A stretch of 42,501 nt of DNA, taken from Paludibacteraceae bacterium. Lineage in GTDB: Bacteria; Bacteroidota; Bacteroidia; Bacteroidales; Paludibacteraceae. A program made the position numbers and the translations under genes. Below are positions 3,624 through 31,460 of the stretch, piece after piece; position 1 is the first letter of the stretch; each line of letters begins with the position of its first letter. The stretch is from the NCBI GenBank assembly GCA_017464025.1, contig JAFUEI010000070.1:1-42501 (forward strand). The letters run 5' to 3'. The notes under the pieces are model-generated. The model ran no database searches and was not told the DNA's origin. It worked only from the letters and a program-made list of their open reading frames with translations.

Positions 3624-5876
3624 TCAGACGTCAGCCTTGTTGAATACCAGCATGGCTTTCTGCGGTGCGGCCAGCATGGCAGCCGCCTGCGTCAGGCAGT
3701 CAGGCTCGCAAGCTCCGGAGGCGACCACCCAGAGGATGCTGTCGGCCCATTGCTCAAGCAGAAGCGTGTCGCTGCAGTCGAGCAAGGCGGCCGAGTCAAC
3801 CAGCACGACATCGTAGTGCTTGCGCAGGAAGGCAAAGAGCTCTTTCATGCGGGGCGACTGCAGCAATTCGTTGGGACAATCGGCCTTGACGGCAGCATAG
3901 ATATCCACTCCGGGGCACTGCACCGAGTTGTGGCTCATGGGTGCCTCATCGCCGGTCTTGTCCTGCAACCAGTCGGTCAGTCCGTCGCGCAAACCGAGAT
4001 ATTCGGCCAGCACGGGTGTGCGCAGATTGAGTTCCACCACAGCCACACGTTTGCCGAGTGCCGCATAGGAAGCTGACAGATTGAGGACGACGGAGGTTTT
4101 TCCTTCTTCCTTCCGGGCGGAGGTGACCAGCAGAACGCAAGAGCCCGTCGGCTCCTTTCTCCTCAGCTGCAGCGCCGTACGCAGGGTGCGGAAGTCTTCG
4201 CCCAACGGAGAAGCGGTATCACAAAGCACACCGGAGCCCTTCTGCTGCCTGCGCAATCGCGCCAGAAGCGGCATTGAGAGGAGAGCAGCGGCTTTTTCAG
4301 GTACACGCACTCCCGTATTGAGGAACAAGAGTATGAAATAGACCAAGACAGGAATGAACAAGCCCATCATGCCAGCTACCACCAGCAACACCAGTTTGCG
4401 GGGAGCCGTAGGCCGAGGGAGCTTGTGGGGGGCATCGATAACCTTCACCCGCGTAACGGAAGATATCTGGGATATTGCGTTCTCCTCCCGCTTCTTATAC
4501 AGGTAGAGATACATCTGCTGCTTGAGTTCTTTGTTCCGCCGTATCTCCACATACTCGCGCTCCTGGGTGGGGACGTCGCTGATACGGCCGCTATATTCGG
4601 CCGCCTGGCGCTCCAGATTGGTCTGCCGGATGGCCAAGCCGCTTTCCGTGCTGGCGATACTGGTCAGGATATTCTCATAGGACACATCAATCTGCTGTTC
4701 AAGCTGCGTAAAGAGCGGGTTGCTGTCGGAGGCAGAGCGTTCCAGACGCATTTTGCGCAGCAGCAGGCCGTTGTAGTTGTTTATCGCATTGATGAGTCCT
4801 TCGTCGCTCAATCCGATATTGGCCGGAACAAAGACCCCTTTCTTGGCCGGGTCCATCATGAACTCCTTCAGATAGGCGACCAGCGTCTTCTGGGTTTCCA
4901 GTTCGGCGCGGCGCTTCTGATACTCGTCGCTGTTGAGCACATAGAGTTGCGCTTCCTCGCTGAGACTGACGATATGATTGTCTTTCTTGTATTTCTCCAC
5001 TTCTTCTTCCGCATCAGCCAGCTCTTCAGTAATCAGCTGGAGACGCTGCTCAATAAACTCGTTGGCATCGGCAATCATCCGGTTTTTCTCAATGACAGCA
5101 TCCATCATATAGATTTCCGTCATCCGGTTCATCATGTCGATGGCACACAGCGGGTCGTCGGTCTCCATCGTGACATTGATGACCTTAGCCCCTTTCTTCA
5201 CCTGCTTGCCGGACAGCAGCTTGCGCAGCGTGAAAATCTGCATAGAGAGTTCGGGTGTGGAGATGCGATAGACATCACCCTTCTGCGGCATACAGGACAC
5301 CGCAAAGGTGACCGGTCCGACGAGCGTGTTGACCGTATCCGTCAGATTAGCGAAACGATAGACCTCAGTACCGTACAACTTGCTCTTCATGCGGAGCACA
5401 TAGCCGTCGGCCTTACACTTCAGCGTCAGCGACAGACCGGAGCGGATGGTGTCCTCCACCAACGGAGCGTAACAGATGCGCAGGTCAGGCTGGACATATT
5501 GCGGTTCCCAGCGCAACCCTTTGCGCTTGCGGTAGGTTGTGCGCAGATTCAGGTCTTTGATGGTTTGCTCCATGACCGCACGGGAGTTGAAGATAACCAG
5601 TTCGCTCTCCACGTCCACTCCGTGGGTATTCATGCCGAGCATGGCCAGCATATCGCTTTGGGGCAACATACTGAGGCCGCTCTGGTTGAGGTCGCGAATC
5701 ATGAAAGAAGATACGACCGAATACTTGTTGTTGGCGGCGAGGATATAGAACAGCCATATCATGCCACACACAAAGCAGGAGAGGGCAAACCAATACCAAT
5801 GCCTCCAACACCAGCGGACCAGCTGCTTGAGGTTGATATTTTTCCCTTCGTTATCGAGAGTTGAAGAAACGTTCAT
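3624..5876 (-). CDS. Wzc/Wzz-like polysaccharide chain-length protein with degenerate BY-kinase domain
   Basis: Inner-membrane polysaccharide co-polymerase that sets glycan chain length and couples export to a Wza-type channel. The 750 residues show a cytoplasmic start, a first membrane segment near residues 25-50, a long periplasmic Wzz/coiled-coil region, a second membrane segment near 495-520, and a C-terminal P-loop domain. The P-loop reads SARKEEGKTS with Lys593, lacking the usual glycine pattern. The Walker A' motif (DxDxR in active kinases) is ELNLR, with Glu615 and Asn617 replacing both aspartates. Walker B keeps Asp694 but has SAA for TPP. The protein ends in FNKADV with no tyrosine cluster. 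I infer a kinase-inactive or non-autophosphorylating form. It is the last gene of the C10-protease operon, 48 bases after the Wza-like gene, and ends before a terminator. Confidence 0.88.
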   Translation of the reverse strand: MNVSSTLDNEGKNINLKQLVRWCWRHWYWFALSCFVCGMIWLFYILAANNKYSVVSSFMIRDLNQSGLSMLPQSDMLAMLGMNTHGVDVESELVIFNSRAVMEQTIKDLNLRTTYRKRKGLRWEPQYVQPDLRICYAPLVEDTIRSGLSLTLKCKADGYVLRMKSKLYGTEVYRFANLTDTVNTLVGPVTFAVSCMPQKGDVYRISTPELSMQIFTLRKLLSGKQVKKGAKVINVTMETDDPLCAIDMMNRMTEIYMMDAVIEKNRMIADANEFIEQRLQLITEELADAEEEVEKYKKDNHIVSLSEEAQLYVLNSDEYQKRRAELETQKTLVAYLKEFMMDPAKKGVFVPANIGLSDEGLINAINNYNGLLLRKMRLERSASDSNPLFTQLEQQIDVSYENILTSIASTESGLAIRQTNLERQAAEYSGRISDVPTQEREYVEIRRNKELKQQMYLYLYKKREENAISQISSVTRVKVIDAPHKLPRPTAPRKLVLLVVAGMMGLFIPVLVYFILLFLNTGVRVPEKAAALLSMPLLARLRRQQKGSGVLCDTASPLGEDFRTLRTALQLRRKEPTGSCVLLVTSARKEEGKTSVVLNLSASYAALGKRVAVVELNLRTPVLAEYLGLRDGLTDWLQDKTGDEAPMSHNSVQCPGVDIYAAVKADCPNELLQSPRMKELFAFLRKHYDVVLVDSAALLDCSDTLLLEQWADSILWVVASGACEPDCLTQAAAMLAAPQKAMLVFNKADV

Positions 5877-5924
5877 AACATAACAGATTTAGCTAAGCAG
5901 GACAGATATACAAGGATTTTCCAA

Positions 5925-6755
5925 TCAGTTTCCGCCGCCCGTTGACGCTGCCTTGTTCTGACTGATGTTCACCACGGAGACGATGACGGTAGCCATCGAG
6001 GCGAGCGAGGTAATCATAGACAAGTAGAGCGAGAGGTTTTGCGCCTGCACAGCACGGACATTGTTAGGCTCGACATATACGATGTCGTTCTGGCGCAGAT
6101 AGTAGAAGGGCGATGAGAACACATCGGCCGTGTTGATATCAACCGTGCCAGAGACGAGACGTCCGTCAGTGTTCTGCCGGACCACCCTGACGGTATTGCG
6201 CTTGCCGTAGATGGTAAGGTCGCCTGCACGGCTCAGGGCATCCAGTATGGTGAGATGCTCTTTCGTGGTGCTGACCGGTCCGGGATGTGCGACCTCTCCC
6301 ATGACCGTGACCGAGAAGTTGAGGAACTGCAGGTTGACAACCGGCTCGTTGATAGCCGAGCGCAGGGTGTCGGTGATGAGGCGGACAGCCTCCGTCTTAT
6401 CCAGCCCCGCCAGATGCAGTCTTCCGACTACGGGGAAGTTGATGCATCCCTGCGTATCGACCGTATAATGCTGCAAGGCGGGCGAAGTGGTGGGTTGTGC
6501 ACTTCCCGGAGCCGTATAGGTGATGGCCGGCAGGTTGAAGGGAGCCGCCACCTCGGCATCAAGGGCCGATACGGTAATGAGCAGGTTGTCGCCTGCCGTG
6601 ATGACGGGTTCGGGATAAGACTTATAGCCGGCATTGAGCGAATCGGCACTGATGTTGTCGATATTGCGGAAATAGGCCAGTTTCTGCTGCGTGACACACG
6701 ACGAGGCCAAGAAGGCTGTCAGCATCAGTAGCAGGATATGTCCATGTTTAAGCAT
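5925..6755 (-). CDS. Wza-like polysaccharide export lipoprotein
   Basis: Outer-membrane or periplasmic exporter component for surface or exo-polysaccharide. It has 276 residues with a lipoprotein signal ending in ASSC (about residue 20). A polysaccharide export domain follows (AGDNLLITVSALDAEV onward), then an SLBB-type beta-grasp domain (FSVTVMGEVAHPGPVS through IYGKRNTVRVVR). Near the C-terminus is a hydrophobic segment (about residues 243-265), as in other Bacteroidota Wza homologues. It lies 13 bases below the OmpA-type gene and 48 bases above the wzc-like gene, so the pair is transcribed with the C10 protease. No polymerase, flippase or glycosyltransferase gene is nearby, so its glycan substrate is unknown. 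Confidence 0.92.
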   Translation of the reverse strand: MLKHGHILLLMLTAFLASSCVTQQKLAYFRNIDNISADSLNAGYKSYPEPVITAGDNLLITVSALDAEVAAPFNLPAITYTAPGSAQPTTSPALQHYTVDTQGCINFPVVGRLHLAGLDKTEAVRLITDTLRSAINEPVVNLQFLNFSVTVMGEVAHPGPVSTTKEHLTILDALSRAGDLTIYGKRNTVRVVRQNTDGRLVSGTVDINTADVFSSPFYYLRQNDIVYVEPNNVRAVQAQNLSLYLSMITSLASMATVIVSVVNISQNKAASTGGGN

Positions 6756-6768
6756 ATAGTTGGTTTGA

Positions 6769-8538
6769 TTATAATATTACAAATTCAACACGACGGTTCT
6801 GTGCGCGTCCCTCCTCGGTATCGTTGGAGGCGACAGGTTCGGACTCGCCCTTGCCGATTGTTTCGATGCGCTGCGTATCGATGCCGCGGCCTACAATATC
6901 GTCCTTGACGGCATTGGCACGTCCTTCAGAAAGCTTCTGGTTGGCCTCGTCGGAGCCCACATTGTCGGTATGGCCGATGATGCGAATGCGTACCTGCGGG
7001 TTCTCGTTCATGAAGAGATAGAGGTCGTTGAGCGCCTCTTCCGACTCGGGAAGTATGCGCGTCTTGTTGGTGGCGAAGAAGAGGTTGTGGAGAACAATGA
7101 CGCGGCCCTTCTTGATGGGCGTAAGGCGTATGGCGAGCGAGTCGCCGATAGAGGCAATCGGTGCAGACCAAGCCTCATAGCCGAGCTGCTCGATGCGGAG
7201 GGAGTAGCCTTCGCCGTCAGGCAACATGACCCGCGCCGTGCCCGAAACGGTATCGGTGTGGAGCGCCGCCACAGGGGCATCCTTGCCCTGCTGGAGCACA
7301 TTAGCCACCACAGGAATGGCTTCGCCCGTCTCGGCATTGCTGACAAAGAGGCGCAACCACGGGCGGTGGCGCATAGCCACGTTGAGAGTGACGGTGTCGC
7401 CCATATCAACAATGCTGAAAGTATGGGTCTGCGGATAGTAGTCGCGCTTGCTGACCGTAAGTTCATAATCGCCTTTGGCCACTTTCTGCTTGAGGGAGCC
7501 CTTTCCGAGGGCCTTTCCCTTGATGGTCATACGGCCGGTCCGCATATTCTTCATCGCGACATTGACAGCCGTGGGACGGCCGGTGGCCTCGTCCGTAGCG
7601 GTAAGCATCAGCCATGAGGCGGCAGGCTTCTTCTTGGGCTCTTTGCTGACCTGGAAGAGCACGGCGAACTTGGCTCCTACCAGCAAAGAGTTCGCCTTGG
7701 CGGGATAGGCATTGTACATGCTCTGCATACCCACTTCACGGGGATAGCCTACCGTGACCATATCGGCAAACGAAGCCGGACTGCCGATGCAGTTGGTAAG
7801 CCCGTAGTCGGCAAAGAGCGAGAGGCGATAGGATATAGGTTTCTTGTCTCTGGTCCAGGGCTGCACCCTCCAATTCTTGGGCATATAATCGTCCAGATAC
7901 CAGCCTATTTCGGCCGAGAGCTGTGCATCAGGGATGGACAGCGCAAAGCGGTTGCGGCTGCTCACGGGCCCTTCGAAGAACTGGCGGTCGGGCATATTGT
8001 GCATCTCGCCAATAAGGCCGAGGTCTTCGTTGGTGGTGTTGAGCATGGCCTTGGAGGAAGCCGTTCCCCAAAGCCCGATGCCTATTTTCGCACCGGCCAG
8101 AAAATAGAAATTATCGAAACGTGCACCGGCCATGACAGGGATATTGAGCAACCCCATAGCCTGCTGCTCCCGATATCCGGAGAAAGCGAAAGTCTCACGC
8201 ATTTTTGCACCGGAGACCACGTTGTCGGAATAGGTATAATCGATCTGAAGGGTACGGTCGTTAACGGCAGAGAGCGAATTGATACTGCTCAACTCAAGAC
8301 CGGTATGAAGAAGAAACTTCTTATATTTCCACTCGTAGCCCACCTGTCCGATAGCTCCGGCACTCCCCTTCCACTGCGCATCGGGCACATTGTGCATAAG
8401 AGCCGAATACCCCAAGCCGAGTTCACCTGTCACATAGTGACGGCTGTTGAACTTGACATCGCTGTTTTGCTTGGCGTACGCGGGAGCGAATCCCGCGCAA
8501 AAGGCAAGAAGCAGAAGAGTTAGCTTTCGACAATTCAT
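6769..8538 (-). CDS. OmpA-family protein with N-terminal barrel and regulatory-like domain (copy A)
   Basis: A 589-residue envelope protein. Order: signal peptide (cleavage near APAYA, mature start Lys-Gln), an N-terminal beta-barrel-like region of about 300 residues including the motif FYFLAGAKIGIG, one or two carboxypeptidase-regulatory-like beta modules (around LMLTATDEATGRPTAVNV), and a C-terminal OmpA peptidoglycan-binding domain. The OmpA domain contains LFFATNKTRILPESE, IIGHTDNVGSDEANQKLSEGRA and RRVEFVIL. It should tie the outer membrane to peptidoglycan. Its ATG overlaps the stop of the C10 protease gene as ATGA (8535-8538), so the two are translationally coupled. It is paralogous to the OmpA protein at 17515-19662; barrel motif, regulatory module and OmpA domain correspond in order. 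Confidence 0.9.
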   Translation of the reverse strand: MNCRKLTLLLLAFCAGFAPAYAKQNSDVKFNSRHYVTGELGLGYSALMHNVPDAQWKGSAGAIGQVGYEWKYKKFLLHTGLELSSINSLSAVNDRTLQIDYTYSDNVVSGAKMRETFAFSGYREQQAMGLLNIPVMAGARFDNFYFLAGAKIGIGLWGTASSKAMLNTTNEDLGLIGEMHNMPDRQFFEGPVSSRNRFALSIPDAQLSAEIGWYLDDYMPKNWRVQPWTRDKKPISYRLSLFADYGLTNCIGSPASFADMVTVGYPREVGMQSMYNAYPAKANSLLVGAKFAVLFQVSKEPKKKPAASWLMLTATDEATGRPTAVNVAMKNMRTGRMTIKGKALGKGSLKQKVAKGDYELTVSKRDYYPQTHTFSIVDMGDTVTLNVAMRHRPWLRLFVSNAETGEAIPVVANVLQQGKDAPVAALHTDTVSGTARVMLPDGEGYSLRIEQLGYEAWSAPIASIGDSLAIRLTPIKKGRVIVLHNLFFATNKTRILPESEEALNDLYLFMNENPQVRIRIIGHTDNVGSDEANQKLSEGRANAVKDDIVGRGIDTQRIETIGKGESEPVASNDTEEGRAQNRRVEFVIL

Positions 8539-11105
8539 TGTGCTATGATTTTTTCGTAATATACAGATTCTCTCGTTCTAACCAATATCAGACACACACC
8601 GTCCGCCGATAGCGGAAGCGAGACGGCAGAGGTGCCCGGCCTGCAGGCAAGCAGACAGCGGCCGTCGGCTGCAAACACCTGCACTTCCTGCAGCGGACAA
8701 TCAGCTTGCAAAAATACAACTTTTTCACTGTACCTGCAAATCAAATTGCAATTTGCGTCCCCGCCGTCAGTCGCCGTGACAATCCGCTGCGGGATGGCAA
8801 ATGAGAGCGCCGCGTATTGGACAGGCTCCATATCGGTCCATGGTGATGCTGCAGAAAGGCGTTGACGCAGGGCAAGCACATAACTGCCGGGAGCAAGAGA
8901 AGGCACACAAGGAATCAGCACCGTATCCGCCCTACTGCTGTCCATCGCAAGCATCACAGGCCAAGCGAGCGAGCGGCAGATGGTGTCGCCAAAGGCATCG
9001 CTCACGAAGGCCTCCACCTGACCGCTGAAGGGGGCCCCGCTGTTGGTGAGTTTCCAACAGACACGCAAGCTGTCGGCCGAAACAGAGTCGGGTCCGACAA
9101 AGGCAAGCGGGGCGGACAACCGTACATCGGGTTCGACGGGCAGGTCGTTATAGAGTCGGAAACCGACACCGTTGTTCGCTGCCGGCTGCAAATCCTGCCA
9201 CGCAGAGGTGCCTGACGGGCGGTACTTCAACTTCATCAGATAATCGCCTTCCGCCTGCGTGAGGTCGGCAGTGACGGTCTTTGTGAGGGTTTGTCCCTGA
9301 AGCAGGCAAAGCGATTCCGCCTCTCCTGCATTGCCGCGGGCGAAACTGCCGCTATAGAGGAATGCCCGGACTTCGCCCTCGAAGCGTCCGGCGATGCATG
9401 TGAGCGTATAGGAGAACTGCGCACCCGTGCGATAGACCCTCGCAGAGTCGGGGAAAGAAGGTCTTCCGGCAAGCTGCAGGACAGCCGGAGCGGACATATT
9501 GATCCGCTCTGCCTGTCCCCCATAAACCCTAATGAGAAGCGGCTCGGAGGAATTGACAGGAAGCTCACGCCAGGCAGCCGTTCGCTGCCATGCGTAGGTC
9601 TTGCAGCCTAACTGCATCCCGAGGAAGGTATTGTAGGCTGTGCATACCTTCTCCGCTTCGGCACAGAGCGGGACGAAGCGGTACCAGCCATCGGGCAGGG
9701 AAGCCGGCAGGCGGAAAGAGGGGAAGAGAAGATCTGCACGGGAGAAAGAGGCGAGTGACGTCTGCGTCAGCGAATCCGGCAGGGCGACAACCTCGCCTGT
9801 CAGTTCATTCTTCAGGGCGACCGCACAAGCCAGCCCGCCGAGGTCGTCCACGCCATAGTTGATCAGGCCGTTGACAGTAAGCGTCAGGGGAGCGCCGCAG
9901 GCAAACACCGTGTCGGAAACAGAGATGCTGTCGCAGCGTATTTGCGGTGCCGACTGAGGCGGCTGTATGCCGATAGCAATCTCCTGATTCTCGGAATACT
10001 TGCCGGTGCTGCCACCGATACCCTGCTGCTGCGGGTTCATAAGCGCCGTACGGAACCATCCGTCGGAAGAGCCTCCCCAGCCCCAGTTGATATGGAAGAG
10101 TCCCTGACTGTCGTAGCCATCGCACACGAAAGAGTGTCCGGGGCGCTTGTTGGTGGCGGGATCCACCTCCCCCCAGCCGGAATAAAGAACAGGTCGTCCG
10201 GCATCCAACTCGTTGCGCAGAAGCGTCTCCCAAGCATCGTCCGTATAGTTCTTGCGCTGCAGGCGGGGCTTGAGACTGCTGTCGTAGCCGAAGCGGGATA
10301 CCAGTGCGGAAGCGGCCTTGTTGGGCACGGCACTGCTGCTGGCTCCGTAAGACATATTGGAGGCGACCCCGACATGATAGAGCAACGTGGACACCGCACT
10401 CTTGACCTTATTGGAAGAAGCGACCGCCGGTTTGTCGGTCATGTCGGCCCACTGATAGGTGGTAGCGGCAAAGTCGGCCTGAAGGGTGCGGCTGATGGTG
10501 GAGTCGGCATTGTACCAGAGATAGGAATAGCTGCCGATGCCGTGCTCGGGATACTTGTGGTAGTACATAATCTGCCCGACTGCCACGGCCACACAACCAG
10601 CAGCTGACGTTTTGCCCATAGCATACTCCGGACAGCGGTCATTGAAAGGAGCGTTCTGATTCCAGTTGCACGTGAGCAGAGGTCCTATGCGTGTGACAGC
10701 CGCCGCGGCCTCAACGGCACGGGCGGGCACTGCTGCGCCGGCGGTGTCATCGGACAGCAAGGCGGCCTGCTCGTCGTAGCAGGCAAGCCACCAGCGCATA
10801 TTGTCCGGCAACGAATCGGGACAGAAAGAGCCTGTGTCAGACCAGCCCAGAATATCGCAAGCGCGGTCATCGGCCCCGACGAGCACGAAGCCGGCACCCG
10901 TGTTGAAGGCATAGTAGGCCGGCGCCGTCTGCACCAACGTGAGGGCAGCACGTGCGGGGGCCTTACGGCCGGATGTCCCTGCAGAGAGGACAACCTGGCG
11001 CCAAGCCAATTCAGCCGCCTCCTCCGCTGTGCGCAGAGCCGCTATAGAAGCCGAGAAAGGCAACAAGAGCAACCCCAGAACAAACAAAACGCGTTTCATA
11101 GACAT
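8535..11105 (-). CDS. C10 family (streptopain-like) cysteine protease with T9SS C-terminal domain
   Basis: Secreted papain-fold cysteine protease of the SpeB/interpain/PrtT group. Starting at the ATG at 11105 it has 856 residues; a second in-frame ATG lies at 11099 (MKRVLF). Upstream extension is excluded because the promoter -7 box is at 11115-11122. Order: signal peptide, inhibitory propeptide of about 120 residues, then the catalytic domain. The nucleophile is Cys171 in AAGCVAVAVGQIMYY, the histidine lies in RPGHSFVCDGY, and the Asn-Trp pair in HINWGWGG. A long beta-rich C-terminal extension ends in a T9SS type A-like domain (VFAADGRCLL, then YYEKIIAQ). Expected to be exported by T9SS and activated by propeptide removal. 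First gene of the operon with OmpA-A, Wza-like and Wzc-like genes. The mRNA leader would be only a few bases. Confidence 0.93.
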   Translation of the reverse strand: MSMKRVLFVLGLLLLPFSASIAALRTAEEAAELAWRQVVLSAGTSGRKAPARAALTLVQTAPAYYAFNTGAGFVLVGADDRACDILGWSDTGSFCPDSLPDNMRWWLACYDEQAALLSDDTAGAAVPARAVEAAAAVTRIGPLLTCNWNQNAPFNDRCPEYAMGKTSAAGCVAVAVGQIMYYHKYPEHGIGSYSYLWYNADSTISRTLQADFAATTYQWADMTDKPAVASSNKVKSAVSTLLYHVGVASNMSYGASSSAVPNKAASALVSRFGYDSSLKPRLQRKNYTDDAWETLLRNELDAGRPVLYSGWGEVDPATNKRPGHSFVCDGYDSQGLFHINWGWGGSSDGWFRTALMNPQQQGIGGSTGKYSENQEIAIGIQPPQSAPQIRCDSISVSDTVFACGAPLTLTVNGLINYGVDDLGGLACAVALKNELTGEVVALPDSLTQTSLASFSRADLLFPSFRLPASLPDGWYRFVPLCAEAEKVCTAYNTFLGMQLGCKTYAWQRTAAWRELPVNSSEPLLIRVYGGQAERINMSAPAVLQLAGRPSFPDSARVYRTGAQFSYTLTCIAGRFEGEVRAFLYSGSFARGNAGEAESLCLLQGQTLTKTVTADLTQAEGDYLMKLKYRPSGTSAWQDLQPAANNGVGFRLYNDLPVEPDVRLSAPLAFVGPDSVSADSLRVCWKLTNSGAPFSGQVEAFVSDAFGDTICRSLAWPVMLAMDSSRADTVLIPCVPSLAPGSYVLALRQRLSAASPWTDMEPVQYAALSFAIPQRIVTATDGGDANCNLICRYSEKVVFLQADCPLQEVQVFAADGRCLLACRPGTSAVSLPLSADGVCLILVRTRESVYYEKIIAQ

Positions 11106-11114
11106 ATTCGGCGG

Positions 11115-11146
11115 CAAAGGTACGCTTTTTCTTCGGTTTTTGCAAA
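11115..11146 (-). promoter_or_regulatory. promoter of the C10 protease operon
   Basis: On the - strand, TTTG (11146-11143) and TACCTTTG (11122-11115) are separated by 20 bases. The predicted start of transcription lies only a few bases before the ATG codons at 11105 and 11099, so the message would be nearly leaderless. Confidence 0.75.
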
Positions 11147-11162
11147 TCCTCTTTCGGCACAG

Positions 11163-11208
11163 GAAAAGGCAGACCGGCACCCGTCGGCTGACGAGTACCG
11201 GTCTGCCT
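11163..11208 (-). terminator. intrinsic terminator of the barrel/OmpA/T9SS-cargo operon
   Basis: AGGCAGACCGG (67-77 of this block, 11167-11177) and CCGGTCTGCCT (11198-11208) form a perfect 11-bp stem, extended inward by further pairs. On the - strand it is followed by TTTT. It lies 24 bases below the stop of the gene at 11232 and just upstream of the next promoter, so it separates the two operons. Confidence 0.85.
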
Positions 11209-11231
11209 GACCGCGATACGGGCCAAGAAGG

Positions 11232-14200: not shown

Positions 14201-14327
14201 TTCCCGGATTGAGCACCCATTGTGCGTTCTGCAAGGGGTCTTCGAAATCGCAGATATAATTCGGAACGGTCTGGGCCGAAAGCATGGCAGCCCAAACACA
14301 GGCAATCAGCAATGAATACTTTTTCAT
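11232..14327 (-). CDS. T9SS-exported multidomain surface protein (1,031 residues, copy 2)
   Basis: Exported protein of unknown function. Signal peptide with cleavage near LSA, leaving Gln as first mature residue. Order: a jelly-roll-like N-terminal domain, a fibronectin III-like segment (KPERLSVSVEGSAVKASW), a second beta-sandwich with the motif GHYGYAYFTLAC, a PKD-like domain (YWDFGDGTQSTEYSPVHVYP), two repeats with the core GCDS followed by a hydrophobic beta strand, an immunoglobulin-like region, and a C-terminal T9SS type A-like sorting domain ending in HRILVR. It is collinear with the gene just upstream (14351-17518) and starts 23 bases after it, suggesting tandem duplication. No catalytic motif was recognised; adhesion or a structural surface role is likely. 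Confidence 0.85.
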   Translation of the reverse strand: MKKYSLLIACVWAAMLSAQTVPNYICDFEDPLQNAQWVLNPGTFGEKSPNKWYIGSATQNGGKNSLYISSSKGDTANYTNSSYCMMAYTEITLEAGTYQLGFDWKAMGADRQQDQLMVFWVPQRLIGPGIDEEIVISCIGQNSIPANIAGSAIELTIDERTYLNGSYTWNTCETSFETDGAPHRLLFVWHNGASLPVNPAACVDNITIVNEMACSKPERLSVSVEGSAVKASWQGDAEKYEIRWYSHATQQWKSLSTTTTSAILGDVDEGYCDFYVQSICADGVVSINSSLSQFIYYPVDRCIDYLTLTDENCYTSEGFGSTSDKITYVPGKVDEGYEEANSRHTVHWLREETDPRTGGALKTVPDGEIASVRLGNWNTGAQTERVEFSFKVDTTLAPVLLMKYAVVLENPGHGAGADPRFTLWVLKDNKTIGPCAQADFTSSAQNVADWNIYQPSSNGVPVVWKDWTTVGINLSEYQGEELTIQLNTFDCSQSGHYGYAYFTLACSDGKMTGINCGDIPTEHFTAPDGFKYRWYRKDNPDDFLSFDQTFYVDQRDTLTYGCDLMFPKDTTCYFTLYASALPRYPIVEGTWKAEQKNCSNIVTFDNTSHIMTVNQITRDSVHRFTEKCERVYWDFGDGTQSTEYSPVHVYPSEGGTFHVTQKAAVSFCEETREFDIVLPELKQTVDTLHPVTCAGTAWSHRGTPYWETGIYRDTLQSVAGCDSLIVIDLKVVEKIETLIDTTIMSDQTFRFDGRDLSEGGVYTVVLKNVTGCDSTVTLDLKVHGLLKVKMDSVFSVCADEPAIHIPFAITQGAADAYSMTFVPERLFANKPSGEVPLGEIVLPLPEDVIPLQTTAQIVFYDSAGVDWQKRILLEVRYPDSVITQRWNDVLAVRNNGYNGGYNFTAWQWYKNGQPLPGATGHYLYEPQGLDLSAEYAVLLTRLEDGAAVMSCPVVPQYFDAARNIPTLVDRSAAVAVQNNVQEAVWIDAVGNRLQGGAVRGGYTQAPALPGIYILTLTDDKAVRTSHRILVR

Positions 14328-14350
14328 ATTATCTCATATCAGATGGTTAA

Positions 14351-17300
14351 TCAGTCCGTTACCAATACTTTCCTGACGACGGTATCGGTATCATCGAACA
14401 TTGTATGCAACAAATAGTAGCCCTCCTGGCGGGGGACTGAGACATTCTGCTCCCCTTCTCCGACAGCCTGCACGGAATAGCATCCGCCTGTCAGCGTATA
14501 GAACTTCAGCACGGCCTTGCGGGGCATCCGCACAGGCACCTGTTGTCCGGTGCGCAACAGCGTAGGAAATTCGTACAGGTCGGTATGAACCGTCGGAACA
14601 AAAGGACAGGAGAGCACCTGCTTGCCGTCCTGACGGGTCAACAGGACGGTATAAAGGTCTTCCGTGCCCAGCTCCGTCTTAGGCAAATACAGATAGGAAT
14701 TGACCTCTCCGTCGATCGGCTGCCCGTTCCGGAACCACTGGTAGGAAGTAAAGGTGTAGCCTCCGTTGTAGCGGCTATTGAGCACATAGAGTACATCGTT
14801 CCACTTCTGCTCAATGACAGATGCCGGATAGCGGATTTCAAAGGGCAAAGTGAACAACTGGTTGGTGCAACCGCTCTGGAAGAACTCCAGTTCGACACTA
14901 TAGAGTCCGGGAAGGATATCGGCCCCGTATTCATAAGTAACCGACAGCACATCGTTGTCGTAAATCACCCTGTTCCTAAACCCTGCCGCCAAAGCATCAG
15001 CCGAGAAGCGCACCTCAAGGCTATCGAACTTGCCTTTGAACACCTGGTAGTCGATTTGCAGCCGCTCGTCGTCAGCACACAAGACGGGCAGGTTCTCCAC
15101 ATTGAGTTCGAGATGCTCCACTACGGTAAGATTGAGGTGGACCACACTATCGCATCCCCACATATTCTTCGCCCAATACTGGTAATCAGGATTGCTTTCG
15201 GTGCGCTGCAAGCCTCCGAAGACATACGTGTCGGTGGAGCAGGCCGTATCGGTCAGCCACGTATCGGGACTGACGGGATGGATAACCAGATTCAGGTGAA
15301 TGACGCTGTCGCAACCGAAGCGGTTTTTGAAGGTCTGCGTATAGATGGCCTGTTCAGAGCGCCAGTCGCCATCGAAGAAGACGGCCTCGCCCTCGCAGCG
15401 ATCCTCGCGAACGGTCTGGTCGGGTGTCAGAATAGAAGGCACTATGATGGTAGCCGTAGTCACCGTGTCGCAGGCACCTTCGGAGAGCATCGCCCGCAGA
15501 GTGGCAACCACCGTGTCCCCTTCGGGACGGCATGTGATTACGGGTGAGGGGACCGATGTGGTTACACCGTTGCTGAAATACCACTCATAGCTCTCGCAAG
15601 CCTCGGAGGTGTGGTTTTCCACTCCGTTGTAGCGCGTCATGATATGACTCCGGTTGACGAGCGTGATGTTGTTCTTGCATTTCTCCGGAGTCCAGCGCCA
15701 TGTGAAGTCGGCAACGGGAAAACGCGGCGCCATATCGGTTGACAGTGTGAAGCAGCATCCGCTCTGCTCACGATAGCATGCCTCGCAATAGTAGGTATGC
15801 TTGTCGGCATCGACCACTATATCCCGCTCGCTACCCCAGTCACGGCCGATATCGTCGGTCCAGTGATAGACAAAGCCTTCCGGCGCCTCGACTTCGATAT
15901 GGGAATCGTTGCCGCAATTGTCGGTATGCAGACGGGCGGAGACACAGTCGATTGTGAAATAAGCATAGCCGTAGTGTCCGCCAAGGGTACAGTCACGGGT
16001 CTGCAGACGGACCTGGAGCGTCTGCCCGTGGTAGCGGCTGTGGATATGAAGACCTATCGACGTCCAGTCTTTCCAAGTGCGGATCCGCTCACGCCGTTCG
16101 TTGAGGATATCGTGCCACTCGCCATCGCCATATCCGGCATAGAAACTGGCGGCACCGCAGTCGGGACTGATGAGATTGCCCTTCTGGTCGAGAATTTCCA
16201 ACGAGAAAAATGGCTGTTCTTCCTTATTATGATTCGGGTCTTCCAGCACAACGGCATAGTTGAGCAGGAGGATAGCCTGATCAACCGTATCGGCCACAAA
16301 CGTATAAGAAATAGCCTCTCCTTCTCCGCCGGTTTTCCAGTTGCCCAACCTGACAGAAGCCATTGCGCCGGGGGGGATGGTGAGCAACTTGTTGTCCGTG
16401 CGGGGGTCAGTGATTCCCTGCTCCCAATTGACGGTATGCCGGCTCTCTATCTCATCCGGGCCGAAGTCCACCTTTCCCTGATGGGCAAACGGATTGGAGT
16501 AGGTACCATAGGTACACTCCGTATCGGGATTGTCCAAATCCAGAAAATTGATGCAGTGGTTTTCCGGGCAATACAATACGACATTATTGGCCACCTGATA
16601 GGCACTGGTGTCGGCCGGCGTGTCGTCATGCGGCAGGATGCCCCGCACACGCACACTGTAAGCGCCTTCACGCAACTGGGGAACCGTGAAAGTATGGACA
16701 GTACCTTTGCTGCTGATACCGCTGATGCTACGCCAGTAGGAGGCATTGACGTTTTTGTATTCCAGCATGAACTGCGTCAGTACGCTCTCCCAAGTGACCA
16801 CCAAGGCCGAGTCTTCGCAGGAGGGGGCGACCGTGACAGAAGCGGGTTTCTTGGCACGGTTGGAAGCAATCTGCACATTATCGACACATGCCGACAGGCG
16901 GCCGGTCACTTCTTCGGCAGCCGTTTTGCCACTGACCCATATAAAGGCCAGAATAAAGTCGTATTGCGCGGCCGAGGCACTGATGGCAAAGGGGACCTTC
17001 AGTGAGGCGTTCACCCACGTATTCTGTCCTGACAGCGCCTGGTCGGTCTGCGTACTGACCACCTTGCATCCCTTGATGAAATTGGGGTCCAACGTACCAC
17101 TCGTAGAGCTGACCGGTATGGATGCCAGGGTGGAAGCCGCACCGATATAGACATACATAGCCGATTTCTGTGCATTGCCTTCACACTTCCAGTCGAAGGT
17201 TATCTCATACTCCTCGCGTTTGCCCGTTTGCGGGAAACGGATGGTCCGATAAGCACAGACAATATTGGCCTCCCCGCTATAGCAGGCATTCTGCCCACCA

Positions 17301-17518
17301 TCACTACTGATGTACAGGCTCTGCCGTCCGTCGTTGCGCACCCCGTTGCCTATCACCCAACGGTCAGGAGCTGCAGGCGTACCTTCGTTGAGGTGCCAGT
17401 CGCTGAGGTTTTCCCCTGCTTCAAAACCGCAAGCAAACGGAACATGGATTTGTGTCTGCGCTCCTACAGACAGGCACAGCACAAATGCACACAACCCTAT
17501 CAACAACTGTTTCTTCAT
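14351..17518 (-). CDS. T9SS-exported multidomain surface protein (1,055 residues, copy 1)
   Basis: Exported protein of unknown function with the same layout as the following paralogue. It has a signal peptide with Gln after the predicted cleavage (SVGA, then QTQ), a jelly-roll-like domain, and a fibronectin III-like segment (KKPASVTVAPSCEDSALVVTW). A beta-sandwich with GHYGYAYFTIDC follows, then a PKD-like domain lacking the usual DFGDG core (YEWYFSNGVTTSVPSP here). Two GCDS repeats (RFGCDSVIHLNL and MWGCDSVVHLNL) and an Ig-like region precede a C-terminal domain ending in RKVLVTD. The start codon overlaps the stop of the OmpA gene as ATGA (17515-17518), so translation is coupled and cargo production is tied to the envelope barrel. 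Role inferred as surface adhesin or scaffold. Confidence 0.85.
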   Translation of the reverse strand: MKKQLLIGLCAFVLCLSVGAQTQIHVPFACGFEAGENLSDWHLNEGTPAAPDRWVIGNGVRNDGRQSLYISSDGGQNACYSGEANIVCAYRTIRFPQTGKREEYEITFDWKCEGNAQKSAMYVYIGAASTLASIPVSSTSGTLDPNFIKGCKVVSTQTDQALSGQNTWVNASLKVPFAISASAAQYDFILAFIWVSGKTAAEEVTGRLSACVDNVQIASNRAKKPASVTVAPSCEDSALVVTWESVLTQFMLEYKNVNASYWRSISGISSKGTVHTFTVPQLREGAYSVRVRGILPHDDTPADTSAYQVANNVVLYCPENHCINFLDLDNPDTECTYGTYSNPFAHQGKVDFGPDEIESRHTVNWEQGITDPRTDNKLLTIPPGAMASVRLGNWKTGGEGEAISYTFVADTVDQAILLLNYAVVLEDPNHNKEEQPFFSLEILDQKGNLISPDCGAASFYAGYGDGEWHDILNERRERIRTWKDWTSIGLHIHSRYHGQTLQVRLQTRDCTLGGHYGYAYFTIDCVSARLHTDNCGNDSHIEVEAPEGFVYHWTDDIGRDWGSERDIVVDADKHTYYCEACYREQSGCCFTLSTDMAPRFPVADFTWRWTPEKCKNNITLVNRSHIMTRYNGVENHTSEACESYEWYFSNGVTTSVPSPVITCRPEGDTVVATLRAMLSEGACDTVTTATIIVPSILTPDQTVREDRCEGEAVFFDGDWRSEQAIYTQTFKNRFGCDSVIHLNLVIHPVSPDTWLTDTACSTDTYVFGGLQRTESNPDYQYWAKNMWGCDSVVHLNLTVVEHLELNVENLPVLCADDERLQIDYQVFKGKFDSLEVRFSADALAAGFRNRVIYDNDVLSVTYEYGADILPGLYSVELEFFQSGCTNQLFTLPFEIRYPASVIEQKWNDVLYVLNSRYNGGYTFTSYQWFRNGQPIDGEVNSYLYLPKTELGTEDLYTVLLTRQDGKQVLSCPFVPTVHTDLYEFPTLLRTGQQVPVRMPRKAVLKFYTLTGGCYSVQAVGEGEQNVSVPRQEGYYLLHTMFDDTDTVVRKVLVTD

Positions 17519-19662
17519 CGTATCTGCTTTATATCCGACGCTCCGGTCGAGATGATGGTAAACTCTACGCGGCGGTTTTGTGCGCGGCCCTCTTCGGTCA
17601 GGTTGTCGGCCACAGGTTCGCTCTCGCCGCGGCCTTCGGACTCGATGCGGTCTGACGAGATGTTGCGCATGATGAGGTTCTGACGCACTGCGGCAGCACG
17701 GCCCTCAGACAGACGCTGGTTGGCCTGGTCGCTACCCACATCGTCGGTATGGCCCACGATGAGAATACGCACCTCCGGATTGTCGGTCAGGAACTGAGCC
17801 AGGTCTTCCATGGCAGCCTCCGACTCAGGAAGAATAACCGTCTTGCCCGTCGCAAAATACAGGTTGTTGATACGCACCTTCCGACCCTCGCGAATCTTAT
17901 GCATCAGCACGGTGAGCGTGTCCTGTTCGAAGCGGAGCGTATCGTCCAAAGGCATGTAGCCTTGCAGCGTGAAATGGCCATAGTAGGTGCCCGCAGGAAG
18001 AGACGTCACGAAGAGGCCGTCGTCGGATGCCGTCCCCTGATAGAGCGGCGTACCGCCGGCATCGGAAAGCGTGAGCTGCGCTTCAAGCGGAGTGCGGGTA
18101 TCACCGTCAAGCACATAGCCGCACAGCAGATACTCCACAGGCTTCGGTTCGGGAACAAGACTGAGGACAAGCGTATCCTGAAGGTCGCGGCGCAGCGTGT
18201 AGTCCACGGCTTCGCCTGACAGGTAGCCCGCACGCTCGGCATTGATGCGGTAGCTTCCGCGCGAGAAGCGACCCACTGCCATACCGCTGCCGTTGGTCGT
18301 CTTCCGGACCATCTTGTCCTTCTGACCGTTGTAGATGCTGACAAGAGCACCGCCGATGCCGCGGCCCGTCTCACTGTTCTGAACACGGACGGCCAGACGC
18401 GGTGTGGGCTCGGCAGGAAGCTTCTGCATACGCTTCTGCTTGCGGGGCAACTCATACCAGATGCTAGCCTTCACGCCAACAAGGAAAGGATTCACTGCCA
18501 CCTTCCCGGCAGCAGAGGTCTGCAGAGCCGACGTCAGAGGCAGCTTCAACGGATTGGCGGGATCGCTCAGGAATACGGCCGGCATGTCGTTGGCGGCACC
18601 TGCGGCGTTCTGAGCACTCTGTATGTTGAGGACACCGTATTCGGCAAAGAGGCCGACACGGTAGTGAAGATTCTTGAGGAAGGTGTTCTCCTTCTGCTTC
18701 TTCCCGCCCTTGTCCTGCTTGGGCTCGTAGCTTATCCAGCGGTCGAGGTTCAGACCCACTTCCGCGGCAAGGGCGAGATTAAGACCGAACTGAAGTTTGG
18801 CGGGAGACATCTCGTAAGGACTCTCCGTCACAAGCGCGTGCGTGAACATATCGCCTAACGGACCGGAGAGTTCGGCGTCGGAAGCGGAGGTGGTCAGCAG
18901 CGCATTGTTCTGCGAACGACCGATGACGTTGAGACCCACCTTGGGACCCGCCAGAAAATAGACGGCATCCCACTCACCGCCGAAGAGAACGGGCAGTTGC
19001 ACATAAGCGGCGGTCCAGCGGTCGGTCATGCGCGGGAAGGCATAGGTGTAGGTCATGGTCGCCTCATAGGGCTGCAGACCGAACGTGCGCGTGAGGACGC
19101 TGCCGTCAGGAGCCGTGATGCCGGTCAGGGAGTTGTAGTGCTCATACTCCAGCCCCGTCGTGAAGAGCATCCGCTTGTAGCGCAACTGGTAGCCCAAGCC
19201 GGCTCCGCCGCCCAACCAGCCTTTCGACTGACCGGCAAAGGCGGCACCGGACTGCGAGCCGAAGTTCTGGAAGAGCGAACTGTAGCCAAACTGACCCCAT
19301 ACGCCGAGGCGATGGGAGATGTCGCGGTTCATGTAGGCCGACACGCGACGGTTGTAGGCCTCTATCTGTGACACCTTCAACTCGTATGCCTCCTCCTGCG
19401 AAAGCTTCTGCTGCGAAGACGACGGCCGGGATGCCGGCTGCTTGGCTGCCGCCCGCTTCTGCTGCTTTTTCTTTTGCTGTTGTTGCTTCTTTTGCTGCTG
19501 CTTCTTTTGTTGCTTCTTTTTCTGTTGGGCAGCTTTCGACTTCTGCTGCGTCCCTACAGGGGAAGCGGAGGCGGCACAAAGCGGAGCGGGGACACCGAAC
19601 GCTATCAACAGCACGAGTGTCAATACGGACAAGAAGTTGCGTTGTTTACAGATATTCTTCAT
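17515..19662 (-). CDS. OmpA-family protein with N-terminal barrel, Lys/Gln-rich tract and regulatory-like domains (copy B)
   Basis: Outer-membrane/peptidoglycan linking protein. The start at 19662 (MKNICKQRN) is preferred because a GGTA ribosome-site-like sequence precedes it and it lies just after the preceding gene; an upstream ATG at 19776 would overlap that gene. This gives 715 residues: signal peptide ending near CAASA, a tract of about 40 residues made almost only of Lys and Gln, a barrel-like region with FLAGPKVGLNV, two carboxypeptidase-regulatory-like modules (RVQNSETGRGIGGALVSIY and GYVLDGDTRTPLEAQLTL), and a C-terminal OmpA domain (LYFATGKTVILPESE, VGHTDDVGSDQANQRLSEGRA, RRVEFTII). 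Paralogue of the gene at 6769-8538. Its stop overlaps the next cargo gene as ATGA. Confidence 0.9.
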   Translation of the reverse strand: MKNICKQRNFLSVLTLVLLIAFGVPAPLCAASASPVGTQQKSKAAQQKKKQQKKQQQKKQQQQKKKQQKRAAAKQPASRPSSSQQKLSQEEAYELKVSQIEAYNRRVSAYMNRDISHRLGVWGQFGYSSLFQNFGSQSGAAFAGQSKGWLGGGAGLGYQLRYKRMLFTTGLEYEHYNSLTGITAPDGSVLTRTFGLQPYEATMTYTYAFPRMTDRWTAAYVQLPVLFGGEWDAVYFLAGPKVGLNVIGRSQNNALLTTSASDAELSGPLGDMFTHALVTESPYEMSPAKLQFGLNLALAAEVGLNLDRWISYEPKQDKGGKKQKENTFLKNLHYRVGLFAEYGVLNIQSAQNAAGAANDMPAVFLSDPANPLKLPLTSALQTSAAGKVAVNPFLVGVKASIWYELPRKQKRMQKLPAEPTPRLAVRVQNSETGRGIGGALVSIYNGQKDKMVRKTTNGSGMAVGRFSRGSYRINAERAGYLSGEAVDYTLRRDLQDTLVLSLVPEPKPVEYLLCGYVLDGDTRTPLEAQLTLSDAGGTPLYQGTASDDGLFVTSLPAGTYYGHFTLQGYMPLDDTLRFEQDTLTVLMHKIREGRKVRINNLYFATGKTVILPESEAAMEDLAQFLTDNPEVRILIVGHTDDVGSDQANQRLSEGRAAAVRQNLIMRNISSDRIESEGRGESEPVADNLTEEGRAQNRRVEFTIISTGASDIKQIR
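19448..19539 (-). repeat. Lys/Gln-coding low-complexity tract
   Basis: The - strand consists of interrupted AAG/AAA/CAG/CAA triplets, coding a run of lysines and glutamines at the mature N-terminus of the OmpA-type protein. Near-repeats of AAGCAGCAGCAAAAG-type sequence make it a candidate site for replication slippage in whole codons, which would change tract length without frameshift. Confidence 0.75.
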
Positions 19663-19672
19663 AGCATTACCT

Positions 19673-20614
19673 TTATTCGTTACAAATAACACATTCTTTC
19701 TTCTGCGGCAGGGGGAAGAGTACGGTGAAGCGCAAGCCCACCGTGAGGTCAGTAAGCCGACAACCGAGTGCCGCATCGGAAGTGTATATATGGTTTATCT
19801 TCATTTGAATTCCCTGTTGGTTCTCTTGCGAGAAGACGGCTCCCTTTGAGACATTCGTATGCCGGTTGAGGAACCCGTAGGTGGCAAAAAAGGCCAGATA
19901 GCAACGATGGCGCGGATGCAGCACATCGTAGCCTGTTTCCCGAGTGACGGGCGTGATTTCCCCGCCTATCTCTATACGCGCGGAAATGCCCGGCAAGAGC
20001 GGAACGCTTTGATTGACGGTACGGCTTTCGTAATCCTGCAGGAAAGCATGGTTGTCCATTCCTTCGAAAGGCTGGGCAGCCCGTTCGTAGATGCCCGATG
20101 TGTTCAGAAGGGCATCCACCGTACCGACGGACAAAAGCGGCAGACTCAGTTGCGGGCCCGCCATGAAATAGAATTTGCCGAACTGCGCCCCCACCATCAG
20201 CGGGACAGAAGCCTCCAGCCGATATACGGCATCACGCCGGCGGGAGAGCTCCACATGATAGAGGAACTGCTCGCCTTCGGTATCCATGGCCGGCAAGTCT
20301 TCCCTTGCATCAGCCACAGGAGTAAACGTAAAAGAGGGAGAGAGCATGATTCCCGCCGAGAAAAGAAACTGCTTGTGGCGGAACATCCAATCGGCACCGA
20401 TTCCGACTCCCACACCGGAAGCGAAAGCGGTAGAAGGCACATTATCCGTTAGCGAGGCAAACGCCGCCTCGGTCCGCAGGGCCACATAGTGGGCCTGCTG
20501 TGCATGCGTATATAACGAGACGAAAACCGCAAGCAAAAACATACATGCCCGCCCTAAGCGGCGACATGGCGGTTCCTGCATCATCCTATTACATACTTTT
20601 GACAATATAGACAT
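19673..20614 (-). CDS. outer-membrane beta-barrel protein without OmpA domain
   Basis: A 313-residue predicted barrel. The start at 20614 is used here; an ATG pair 10 codons downstream at 20584 (MMQEPP) is a possible alternative. The signal peptide ends near LYTHA with Gln as first mature residue. The body has alternating strands and the motif FYFMAGPQLSLP, which corresponds to FYFLAGAKIGIG and FLAGPKVGLN in the two OmpA-type proteins of this window, so the barrel seems related to their N-terminal domains. It is the first gene of the second unit and ends 10 bases before the OmpA-B start. It may belong to the PorT-like or porin-family outer-membrane barrels; no precise function can be given. 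Confidence 0.8.
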   Translation of the reverse strand: MSILSKVCNRMMQEPPCRRLGRACMFLLAVFVSLYTHAQQAHYVALRTEAAFASLTDNVPSTAFASGVGVGIGADWMFRHKQFLFSAGIMLSPSFTFTPVADAREDLPAMDTEGEQFLYHVELSRRRDAVYRLEASVPLMVGAQFGKFYFMAGPQLSLPLLSVGTVDALLNTSGIYERAAQPFEGMDNHAFLQDYESRTVNQSVPLLPGISARIEIGGEITPVTRETGYDVLHPRHRCYLAFFATYGFLNRHTNVSKGAVFSQENQQGIQMKINHIYTSDAALGCRLTDLTVGLRFTVLFPLPQKKECVICNE

Positions 20615-20668: not shown

Positions 20669-20712
20669 AAAAGAGAAAGGGACAGCCGCAGACAGTGCTG
20701 CGACTGTCCCTT
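20666..20712 (-). terminator. intrinsic terminator of the giant adhesin gene
   Basis: On the - strand, AAGGGACAG (20712-20704) pairs with CTGTCCCTT (20685-20677), and an inner GCAG/CTGC pair extends the stem. T-rich sequence (TTCTCTTTTTAA) follows. It lies 24 bases after the adhesin stop codon and before the barrel gene. Confidence 0.82.
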
Positions 20713-20735
20713 CATACATGAGCATCAGAGCCCGG

Positions 20736-31428: not shown

Positions 31429-31460
31429 CAAAAATAGTTATTTCTTTCCATTTGTGCAAA
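31429..31460 (-). promoter_or_regulatory. promoter of the giant adhesin
   Basis: On the - strand TTTG (31460-31457) and TATTTTTG (31436-31429) are separated by 20 bases. The leader before the ATG at 31334 would be about 90 bases. Confidence 0.75.

Follow-up and report, generated by a model that had tools for sequence, protein, structure and literature searches.

The question raised by this locus is whether proteins exported by the type IX secretion system (T9SS) are merely encoded next to OmpA-type barrel proteins or share with them a module of the cell surface. The locus lies in a stretch of 42,501 nucleotides from a Paludibacteraceae bacterium (assembly GCA_017464025.1, contig JAFUEI010000070.1), hereafter the window, which is contig 52 of a 2.1 Mb genome in 71 contigs. 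An earlier note on this DNA had described eight genes in two transcription units, each joining T9SS cargo to an OmpA-type barrel, as a candidate undescribed surface-assembly module. All eight were found as open reading frames (ORFs) at or near the positions that it had assigned, and Pfam domains agree with the description of the two OmpA proteins, the protease and the Wza- and Wzc-like genes. Our main finding is that a fusion of barrel and OmpA domain (bOmpA), a lone barrel (BAR) and large cargo genes recur in a conserved order within the genus, headed by a gene for a giant surface protein (GIANT); the role that we propose for them below is tentative. The module genes of the window are:

20736 to 31334, reverse strand: GIANT, 3532-residue surface protein with Pfam fn3 and MAM, NCBIfam choice_anch_J and a C-terminal T9SS type A sorting domain
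19673 to 20614, reverse strand: BAR, lone outer-membrane barrel of 313 residues with 8 predicted strands and twin cysteines, Cys308 and Cys311, in its C-terminal tail (..ECVICNE)
17515 to 19662, reverse strand: bOmpA-B (OmpA-B), with signal peptide, K/Q-rich helix, 8-stranded barrel, two Ig/CRD-like domains and OmpA peptidoglycan-binding domain
14351 to 17518, reverse strand: CARGO1, 1055-residue secreted protein with a divergent type A-like sorting domain
11232 to 14327, reverse strand: CARGO2, 1031 residues, paralogue of CARGO1 with a PKD-like domain and a divergent sorting domain
8535 to 11105, reverse strand: C10 cysteine protease cargo with Peptidase_C10 (2.6e-62), Inhibitor_I69 prodomain (6.4e-18; both Pfam) and sorting domain
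6769 to 8538, reverse strand: bOmpA-A (OmpA-A), 589 residues, barrel, CRD and OmpA (Pfam OmpA 4.9e-22)

Genes were called with a greedy longest-ORF script, and some false ORFs are to be expected. OmpA-B probably starts at 19662 (longest frame 19776), 10 bp behind BAR, and the protease start at 11105 was taken from the earlier note (longest frame from 11180). The protease belongs to the Peptidase C10 family by PF01640 together with its Inhibitor_I69 prodomain, and GIANT matches the type A sorting domain of NCBIfam (TIGR04183, 27.1 bits against a cut-off of 23).

Two sets of loci, neither chosen by neighbouring genes, carry the main finding. For the first, 41 genomes were searched with OmpA-A, and barrel-bearing matches in genomes of the genus were taken with their surroundings. 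This gave 40 fetched regions, which include one lone-barrel locus (L054) and leave out OmpA-only matches, G023 (later L127) and G021:C57; the 40 bOmpA genes counted below exclude an L079 copy cut by a contig end. The second set consists of 47 named loci retrieved with the barrel and CRD part of OmpA-B; a contig scan with OmpA-A as a single protein had found no relative, and its repeat with alignment A1 gave 47 loci. They contain near-duplicates as well as contigs also present among the G-numbered genomes, are titled Paludibacteraceae or Bacteroidales bacteria (one Candidatus Colicola), and many stem from rumen, reticulum and other ruminant-gut samples.

The recurrent order in the genus is GIANT, BAR, bOmpA, cargo, cargo. 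Among the 47 named loci, BAR stands directly upstream of bOmpA in 46, cargo lies downstream of bOmpA in 45 (immediately so in 42), two or more cargo genes of about 1000 residues follow in 37, and GIANT precedes BAR in 37, or in 39 when shorter cargo-type genes are counted; several of the missing neighbours fall at contig ends. In the first set, a same-strand cargo-type gene adjoins 33 of 40 bOmpA genes compared with 2 of 130 control genes from arbitrary contigs of the window's genome (Fisher p 6e-26, uncorrected for relatedness). The former count accepts a C10 neighbour as cargo, which the control count did not; by the control's rule it is 32 of 40. Cargo-type genes flank bOmpA on both sides in 15 of 40 cases, and a neighbour with a sorting domain was found for 30 of 40 using a profile partly seeded by the window's cargos and for 17 of 40 using a profile from outside the module. 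The adjacency on which the earlier note had staked its proposal is conserved, and its first unit of barrel, OmpA-B and two cargos stands in all its genes, although the 3532-residue protein upstream, part of the conserved order, had been missed.

Seven bOmpA genes of the first set lack an immediate cargo neighbour: a barrel lies between the two at L059, L061 and L071, opposite-strand ORFs lie between at L085 and L089, and no cargo was found at L086 and L090. The second unit proposed for the window recurs in part. Its pair of protease and bOmpA is repeated as GIANT-C10-bOmpA at L066, with the same 4-bp overlap of C10 and bOmpA as in the window, and at L079 without the overlap, whereas its polysaccharide genes are less conserved. 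These are:

5925 to 6755, reverse strand: Wza-like polysaccharide export protein (Pfam Poly_export 6.1e-13, SLBB)
3624 to 5876, reverse strand: Wzc-like chain-length/tyrosine kinase protein (Pfam GNVR 9.5e-11, Wzz)

Apart from the window, Wza and Wzc genes were seen beside bOmpA at L124 and L086/L135 alone, with a Wza gene after C10 at L125; the Wzc-type NCBIfam matches of the Wzc-like protein lie below their cut-offs. L086 and L135 represent one contig in two collections, on which a bOmpA gene of type B is directly followed by Wza and Wzc, with neither cargo nor lone barrel.

Beyond the genus the module thins out. Two profiles were run against 295 genomes of the order, the barrel and CRD profile with up to four candidates scored in each genome and the lone-barrel profile with up to seven. 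Full barrel and CRD matches came from two genomes only, the window's and that of another genus member. Short partial matches, mostly in the CRD region, were seen in 24 further genomes, and this profile had zero matches in two genomes that belong to the same family but to other genera. The lone-barrel profile matched 14 of the 295 genomes, 12 of them outside the genus and weakly (2e-17 to 4e-4). Since full barrel-OmpA matches are confined to the genus among these 295 genomes, the module looks like a genus-level invention. It has also multiplied within genomes, with barrel-OmpA or lone-barrel genes on four further contigs of the window's genome.

Both ATGA overlaps that had been read as a sign of coupled synthesis exist, but the gene order is opposite in the two: OmpA precedes cargo at 17515-17518 and follows it at 8535-8538. 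Of 48 cargo/barrel-OmpA junctions, 7 overlap by 4 bp, the window's two included; such overlaps are ordinary operon spacing and not a special feature of the module. A terminator-like hairpin directly after CARGO2 (19 bp, 11208-11167) speaks for the split into two units, as does a site at 11146 that resembles a promoter of the Bacteroidetes type; similar sites lie at 31460 and, inside the protease gene, at 8740. Only the two longest hairpins were relied on:

11167 to 11208, reverse strand: terminator-like hairpin separating the two units, with a 19-pair stem including 12 GC pairs (consensus match only)
20676 to 20713, reverse strand: terminator-like hairpin between GIANT and BAR, with a 16-pair stem and T-rich tail (consensus match only)

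The window's terminator total of 14 compares with 14.8 in shuffles, and a sigma-70 promoter scan of the window found 10 sites against 10.1 expected from shuffles. Within barrel, bOmpA and cargo the gaps at the 47 named loci are mostly below 60 bp, and GIANT stands 9-972 bp away, mostly 130-280. This wider gap, together with the hairpin at the GIANT/BAR junction of the window, suggests that GIANT is made from a separate or attenuated transcript.

What kind of proteins are the two partners? OmpA-A and OmpA-B are 34% identical, and both match Pfam OmpA and CarboxypepD_reg, the latter below cut-off in OmpA-A. When these two were aligned with 41 of 48 bOmpA genes (A3), all 43 members were found to carry both OmpA (PF00691, 43/43) and CarboxypepD_reg (PF13620 at E<=0.01, 43/43). 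The AlphaFold2 model of bOmpA-B (pLDDT 83.6, pTM 0.55) contains an 8-stranded barrel, and the C-terminal domain of PorE (6top) is among its Foldseek matches. As in PorE, an OmpA-type C-terminal domain, predicted to bind peptidoglycan, follows a CRD-like domain, and NCBIfam T9SS_PorE matches the two bOmpA proteins (1.5e-22 and 2.1e-22) in the CRD/OmpA part only and far under its cut-off; the N-terminal TPR and beta-propeller of PorE are absent from bOmpA, and the barrel occupies their place. BAR (alignment A2, 43 of 46 lone barrels plus that of the window) and the bOmpA barrels are homologous (hhalign probability 100, E 8e-42) and are both predicted to be 8-stranded. The FLAGxKxG motif, which the earlier note had assigned to all three barrels, is present in the OmpA proteins (FLAGAKIG and FLAGPKVG) but only partial in BAR (FMAGPQLS). 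Proteins of the OmpA-B type also have a long K/Q/A-rich helix between signal peptide and barrel (19410-19550, reverse strand, in the window), which is presumably periplasmic.

Membership of these barrels in the PorP/SprF family was considered and rejected. Neither BAR nor bOmpA matches PF11751, BAR does not match TIGR03519, and TIGR03519 is absent among the 25 families listed for each bOmpA; the genus's own PorP matches TIGR03519 at 2.7e-61, PorP_SprF has one match per genome in 26 of 26, and SprF-family models gave zero BAR matches. PorP/SprF proteins are 14-stranded FadL-like barrels (PMC9143113), against the 8 strands predicted for the module barrels, and the type B domain of their cognate cargo (TIGR04131) does not occur among module cargo C-termini. 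What the module barrels have in common with PorP/SprF is a gene beside T9SS cargo, directly for bOmpA (33/40) and by way of bOmpA for BAR (46/47). The PorG models PF19573 and NF052316 matched none of 44 BARs. Foldseek returned weak, poorly superposed matches for BAR, VIA-align groups it with OmpA and NspA, and the one match of the BAR profile among Protein Data Bank sequences (PLS9-PPR, E 6e-4) was judged spurious.

The T9SS core is present: SprA, PorV, PorP, PorG and PorK were all found in the window's genome, along with nine PF18962 matches, six of them above cut-off. CARGO1 and CARGO2 are paralogues (phmmer E 2e-145). Their sorting domains match no NCBIfam family at E 0.1; an iterated C-terminal domain (CTD) profile with the window cargos among its seeds recovers them at E 1.2e-22 and E 8.5e-17, respectively, and with a profile built from 10 non-module sorting domains the values are E 0.029 for CARGO1, E 0.48 for CARGO2 and E 8.9e-4 for the C10 protease. 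Across the genus, 68 of 79 cargo C-termini were aligned (A5). TIGR04183 was found in 21 of the 68, not in the window's CARGO1 copy, and no other NCBIfam model, TIGR04131 included, matched them at E 0.01; compared profile to profile with the genome's other sorting domains, they reach hhalign probability 90 (E 1.6e-6). Judged from the TIGR04183 matches and this comparison, the module cargo is type A-like and divergent; the domains of CARGO1 and CARGO2 themselves are weak. The single type B match in the window's genome (TIGR04131, G000:C2:14422-14631) lies outside the module on a 457-residue frame, perhaps the counterpart of PG1035.

Partners and cargo have diverged in parallel. For 36 pairs of barrel and nearest cargo C-terminus the correlation was r 0.470, compared with a mean of 0.119 when partners were shuffled within genomes (1 of 2000 shuffles as high); with the parts of bOmpA scored apart, the CRD part gave r 0.514 (0/2000 as high) and the OmpA domain r 0.309 (8/2000).

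Many of the genus's secreted proteins share a short conserved C-terminal tail (approximately K-x-[IVL]-x-x-[ND]-x-[IVL]-[YF]-I, then G-x-x-Y-[DN]-x-x-G-[QR]-K-V), which resembles the first half of a T9SS sorting domain and replaces the full domain on the giants of one clade. Examples are L060:6384-9164 (reverse strand), in which no NCBIfam sorting model matched, the giants of L057, L065, L083, L134 and others, and L100:1430-2371.

The earlier note had overlooked the tail of BAR, which in the window reads QKKECVICNE behind the last strand (287-301). An 8-stranded barrel with tail cysteines is also the layout of PorG, the periplasmic side of the tail being deduced from the even number of strands. 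Tails with CxxC or CxC occur in 33 of 71 lone barrels, and in the first non-redundant set the motif was found in 21 of 58 barrels compared with 26 of 648 other ORFs; the L071 barrel (tail CMC), which fell below the threshold for this label, is missing from both barrel counts. On a tree built without the tails the twin-cysteine label changes twice, and 0 of 500 shuffles were as low. As branches without the tail nest inside branches with it, we take the twin-cysteine tail to be the ancestral state, lost twice, though the tree has no known root. In one large clade (L057, L065, L083, L085, L089 and most of L133-L169) CVICD has become SYIYD, with tyrosines in place of cysteines, followed by a conserved basic tail, often RGGNQ.

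The genus PorG commonly ends in KKxCRxCN, and both cysteines are invariant in the 18 aligned rows of A4. This alignment holds 18 of 20 PF19573 matches (19/26 genomes) and omits L186, whose CxxC is more distant from the C-terminus, and L189, the second of two matches in one genome, which lacks tail cysteines; the PorG-model match of the window's genome lies elsewhere and is not BAR. PorG ancestry of BAR is unproven (hhalign probability 30). The PorK of the window's genome contains DAKGCF, and the cysteine is present in 26 of 26 genomes of the genus. Liu and co-workers (PMC12635249) showed that GldK is disulfide-bonded to the cysteine tails of SprF and PorG through a cysteine that PorK has too, where it lies in the motif Arg-Gly-Cys-Phe. 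By analogy, the BAR tail may use the KGCF cysteine of PorK.

What, then, might the module do? By analogy with complexes of PorE, PorP and type B cargo, we propose that bOmpA is a cargo-specific wall anchor and that BAR is possibly coupled to PorK, a reading that we hold at just short of an even chance. GIANT and the two cargos of about 1000 residues would be exported through the SprA/Sov translocon via their type A-like C-terminal domains and reach the cell surface. There, bOmpA would serve as the cargos' dedicated outer-membrane partner, its 8-stranded barrel sitting in the membrane next to the cargo, and its Ig/CRD-like and OmpA domains would extend to the peptidoglycan and fix the cargo statically to the wall, which would make it a one-chain counterpart of the PorP and PorE pair. 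BAR would be a paralogue of the bOmpA barrel in which a short tail, with twin cysteines in many lineages, replaces the wall anchor; this tail could be linked to the PorK ring at its exposed [RK]GCF cysteine, by a disulfide like those of PorG and SprF, and so couple GIANT, or its release, to the T9SS energy chain. The anchoring role of bOmpA seems to us evenly poised, and the motor-coupling role of BAR unlikely. In the broad terms of the earlier note, the partners may dock, anchor or help export the cargo. A bolder version, which we doubt, would see here a second, unrelated class of T9SS partners, with paired OmpA-type 8-stranded barrels on type A-like cargo, bOmpA as a stator on peptidoglycan and BAR as a rotor covalently bound to the turning PorK ring, so that wall and motor would between them hold or strain a surface fibre, or the fibre's own dedicated PorG-like barrel would push it out of the translocon.

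Several observations weigh against the anchor and coupling proposal. Type A cargo is normally carried by PorV, and because PorV is present a dedicated shuttle is not required. The CARGO1 and CARGO2 sorting domains are weak by independent models, a bOmpA gene lies beside Wza and Wzc without any cargo at L086/L135, and L090/L123 is a BAR-bOmpA pair without neighbouring cargo. The gene order may be kept only through co-regulation, and co-divergence, while it fits cognate pairs, may reflect duplication or inheritance as a block, since the OmpA domain co-diverges too. As for BAR, its profile similarity to PorG covers the last strand and tail only (the hhalign match above), for which reason the resemblance of the tails may be convergent; 38 of 71 lone barrels lack twin cysteines, so a disulfide is not essential to the module everywhere; and PorK has three more conserved cysteines besides the lipid one.

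The rival that survives best, a tentative but serious possibility, is that GIANT and the tandem cargos self-assemble into fibres or a coat like a surface layer (S-layer), exported by PorV and fixed in the usual way by sortase and anionic lipopolysaccharide (A-LPS), while bOmpA and BAR would be structural outer-membrane proteins of the ordinary sort, co-expressed from that operon to let the envelope bear the coat. The tandem of large cargos at 37 of the 47 named loci, paralogous in the window, and the presence of PorV agree with this, and the S-layer of Tannerella forsythia is likewise made of two proteins (PMC5338828). It leaves unexplained, however, why the twin-cysteine tail of BAR is kept over several deep branches and why bOmpA stays beside cargos as unlike as the C10 protease and other cargo families.

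We consider it quite unlikely that the module is a motor-linked, gliding-like adhesin, with GIANT as an SprB-like protein, twin-cysteine BAR as its carrier on a moving track of PorK/GldJ type and bOmpA as brake or static partner. The tail of BAR is of the SprF/PorG type, and GIANT ends in a CTD at 7 of 9 twin-cysteine loci with a readable giant end compared with 4 of 31 others (Fisher p 5e-4), an association that is uncorrected for relatedness, is dominated by one clade and was not built on. A GldJ-like gene is also found in the genus: among 18 regions chosen for GldJ-like or barrel matches, 12 have a lone barrel and 15 a GldJ-like gene, and at 8 of these 15 GldJ-like loci a twin-cysteine barrel lies less than 5 kb away. 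This lead is weakened, since GldJ-model matches in 41 of 41 relatives searched single out nothing; moreover, SprF-family models do not match BAR, 38 of the 71 lone barrels are without the cysteines, and we know of no motility in the genus. A second lone-barrel group with CVIC-type tails was seen in these regions (L216-L218, L220-L224), and at L217 and L222 a giant homologue lies beyond the GldJ-like gene.

Very improbable is a polysaccharide module, in which barrels and OmpA proteins would serve capsule or exopolysaccharide export with Wza and Wzc and the cargos would merely be co-regulated surface proteins: it accounts for the Wza and Wzc genes beside bOmpA in the window, L124 and L086/L135 and for the Wza gene after C10 at L125, but the other mapped loci have no Wza or Wzc gene within the stretches fetched. 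Chance neighbourhood without a functional link can be dismissed, refuted by the conservation of cargo beside bOmpA (33/40 against 2/130, relatedness uncorrected, and 45 of the 47 named loci).

How far is the anchor and coupling proposal new? In Flavobacterium johnsoniae, operons are known that combine type B cargo with a shuttle resembling PorP/SprF and a wall anchor resembling PorE; Gorasia and co-workers found a complex of PorE, PorP and PG1035 in Porphyromonas gingivalis, and Paillat and co-workers proposed that a set including PorE stays static, whereas other sets travel with the gliding machinery (PMC9143113, PMC12618676). The word undescribed, used in the earlier note, is thus only partly right; among the titles and opening lines of abstracts that searches of openly licensed PMC papers listed, there was no fused barrel-OmpA T9SS partner. 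If the proposal is true, dedicated carriers and anchors extend beyond PorP/SprF and type B cargo, and disulfide coupling of barrels to the PorK/GldK track reaches a barrel family encoded with giants of ruminant-gut bacteria. Because one of the paired barrels has a wall anchor and the other a cysteine tail, a single operon would allow static surface proteins to be told from motor-linked ones by experiment, with the natural cysteine losses as ready-made comparisons.

Like the PorE-PorP-PG1035 complex and the F. johnsoniae PorE operons, the module combines T9SS cargo with an outer-membrane barrel and a peptidoglycan-binding part of OmpA type, which in PorE follows a CRD; static wall anchoring is proposed in both cases. 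In those systems the FadL-like PorP/SprF barrel is separate from PorE and the cargo is type B, whereas here an 8-stranded barrel is fused to CRD and OmpA without TPR or propeller and the cargo is type A-like. PorG (PF19573, NF052316) resembles BAR as an 8-stranded outer-membrane barrel with cysteines in a periplasmic C-terminal tail, but BAR is longer, is unmatched by the PorG models and is similar only in the last strand and tail. The T. forsythia S-layer also consists of two large surface proteins, and to our knowledge it has no dedicated barrel-OmpA partner. In SprB-SprF of F. johnsoniae a giant surface protein gene likewise stands beside a barrel with a twin-cysteine tail; SprF belongs to the PorP family, carries a CxC tail and has type B cargo (PMC12635249), whereas in the module the barrel is OmpA-type, its tail has CxxC or CxC, and the sorting domain in the window is of type A. 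The kind, cargo with barrel and OmpA part, is already known for type B cargo and the module is a variant of it; new are the different barrel family, its fusion to the OmpA part, the type A-like cargo and the twin-cysteine barrel.

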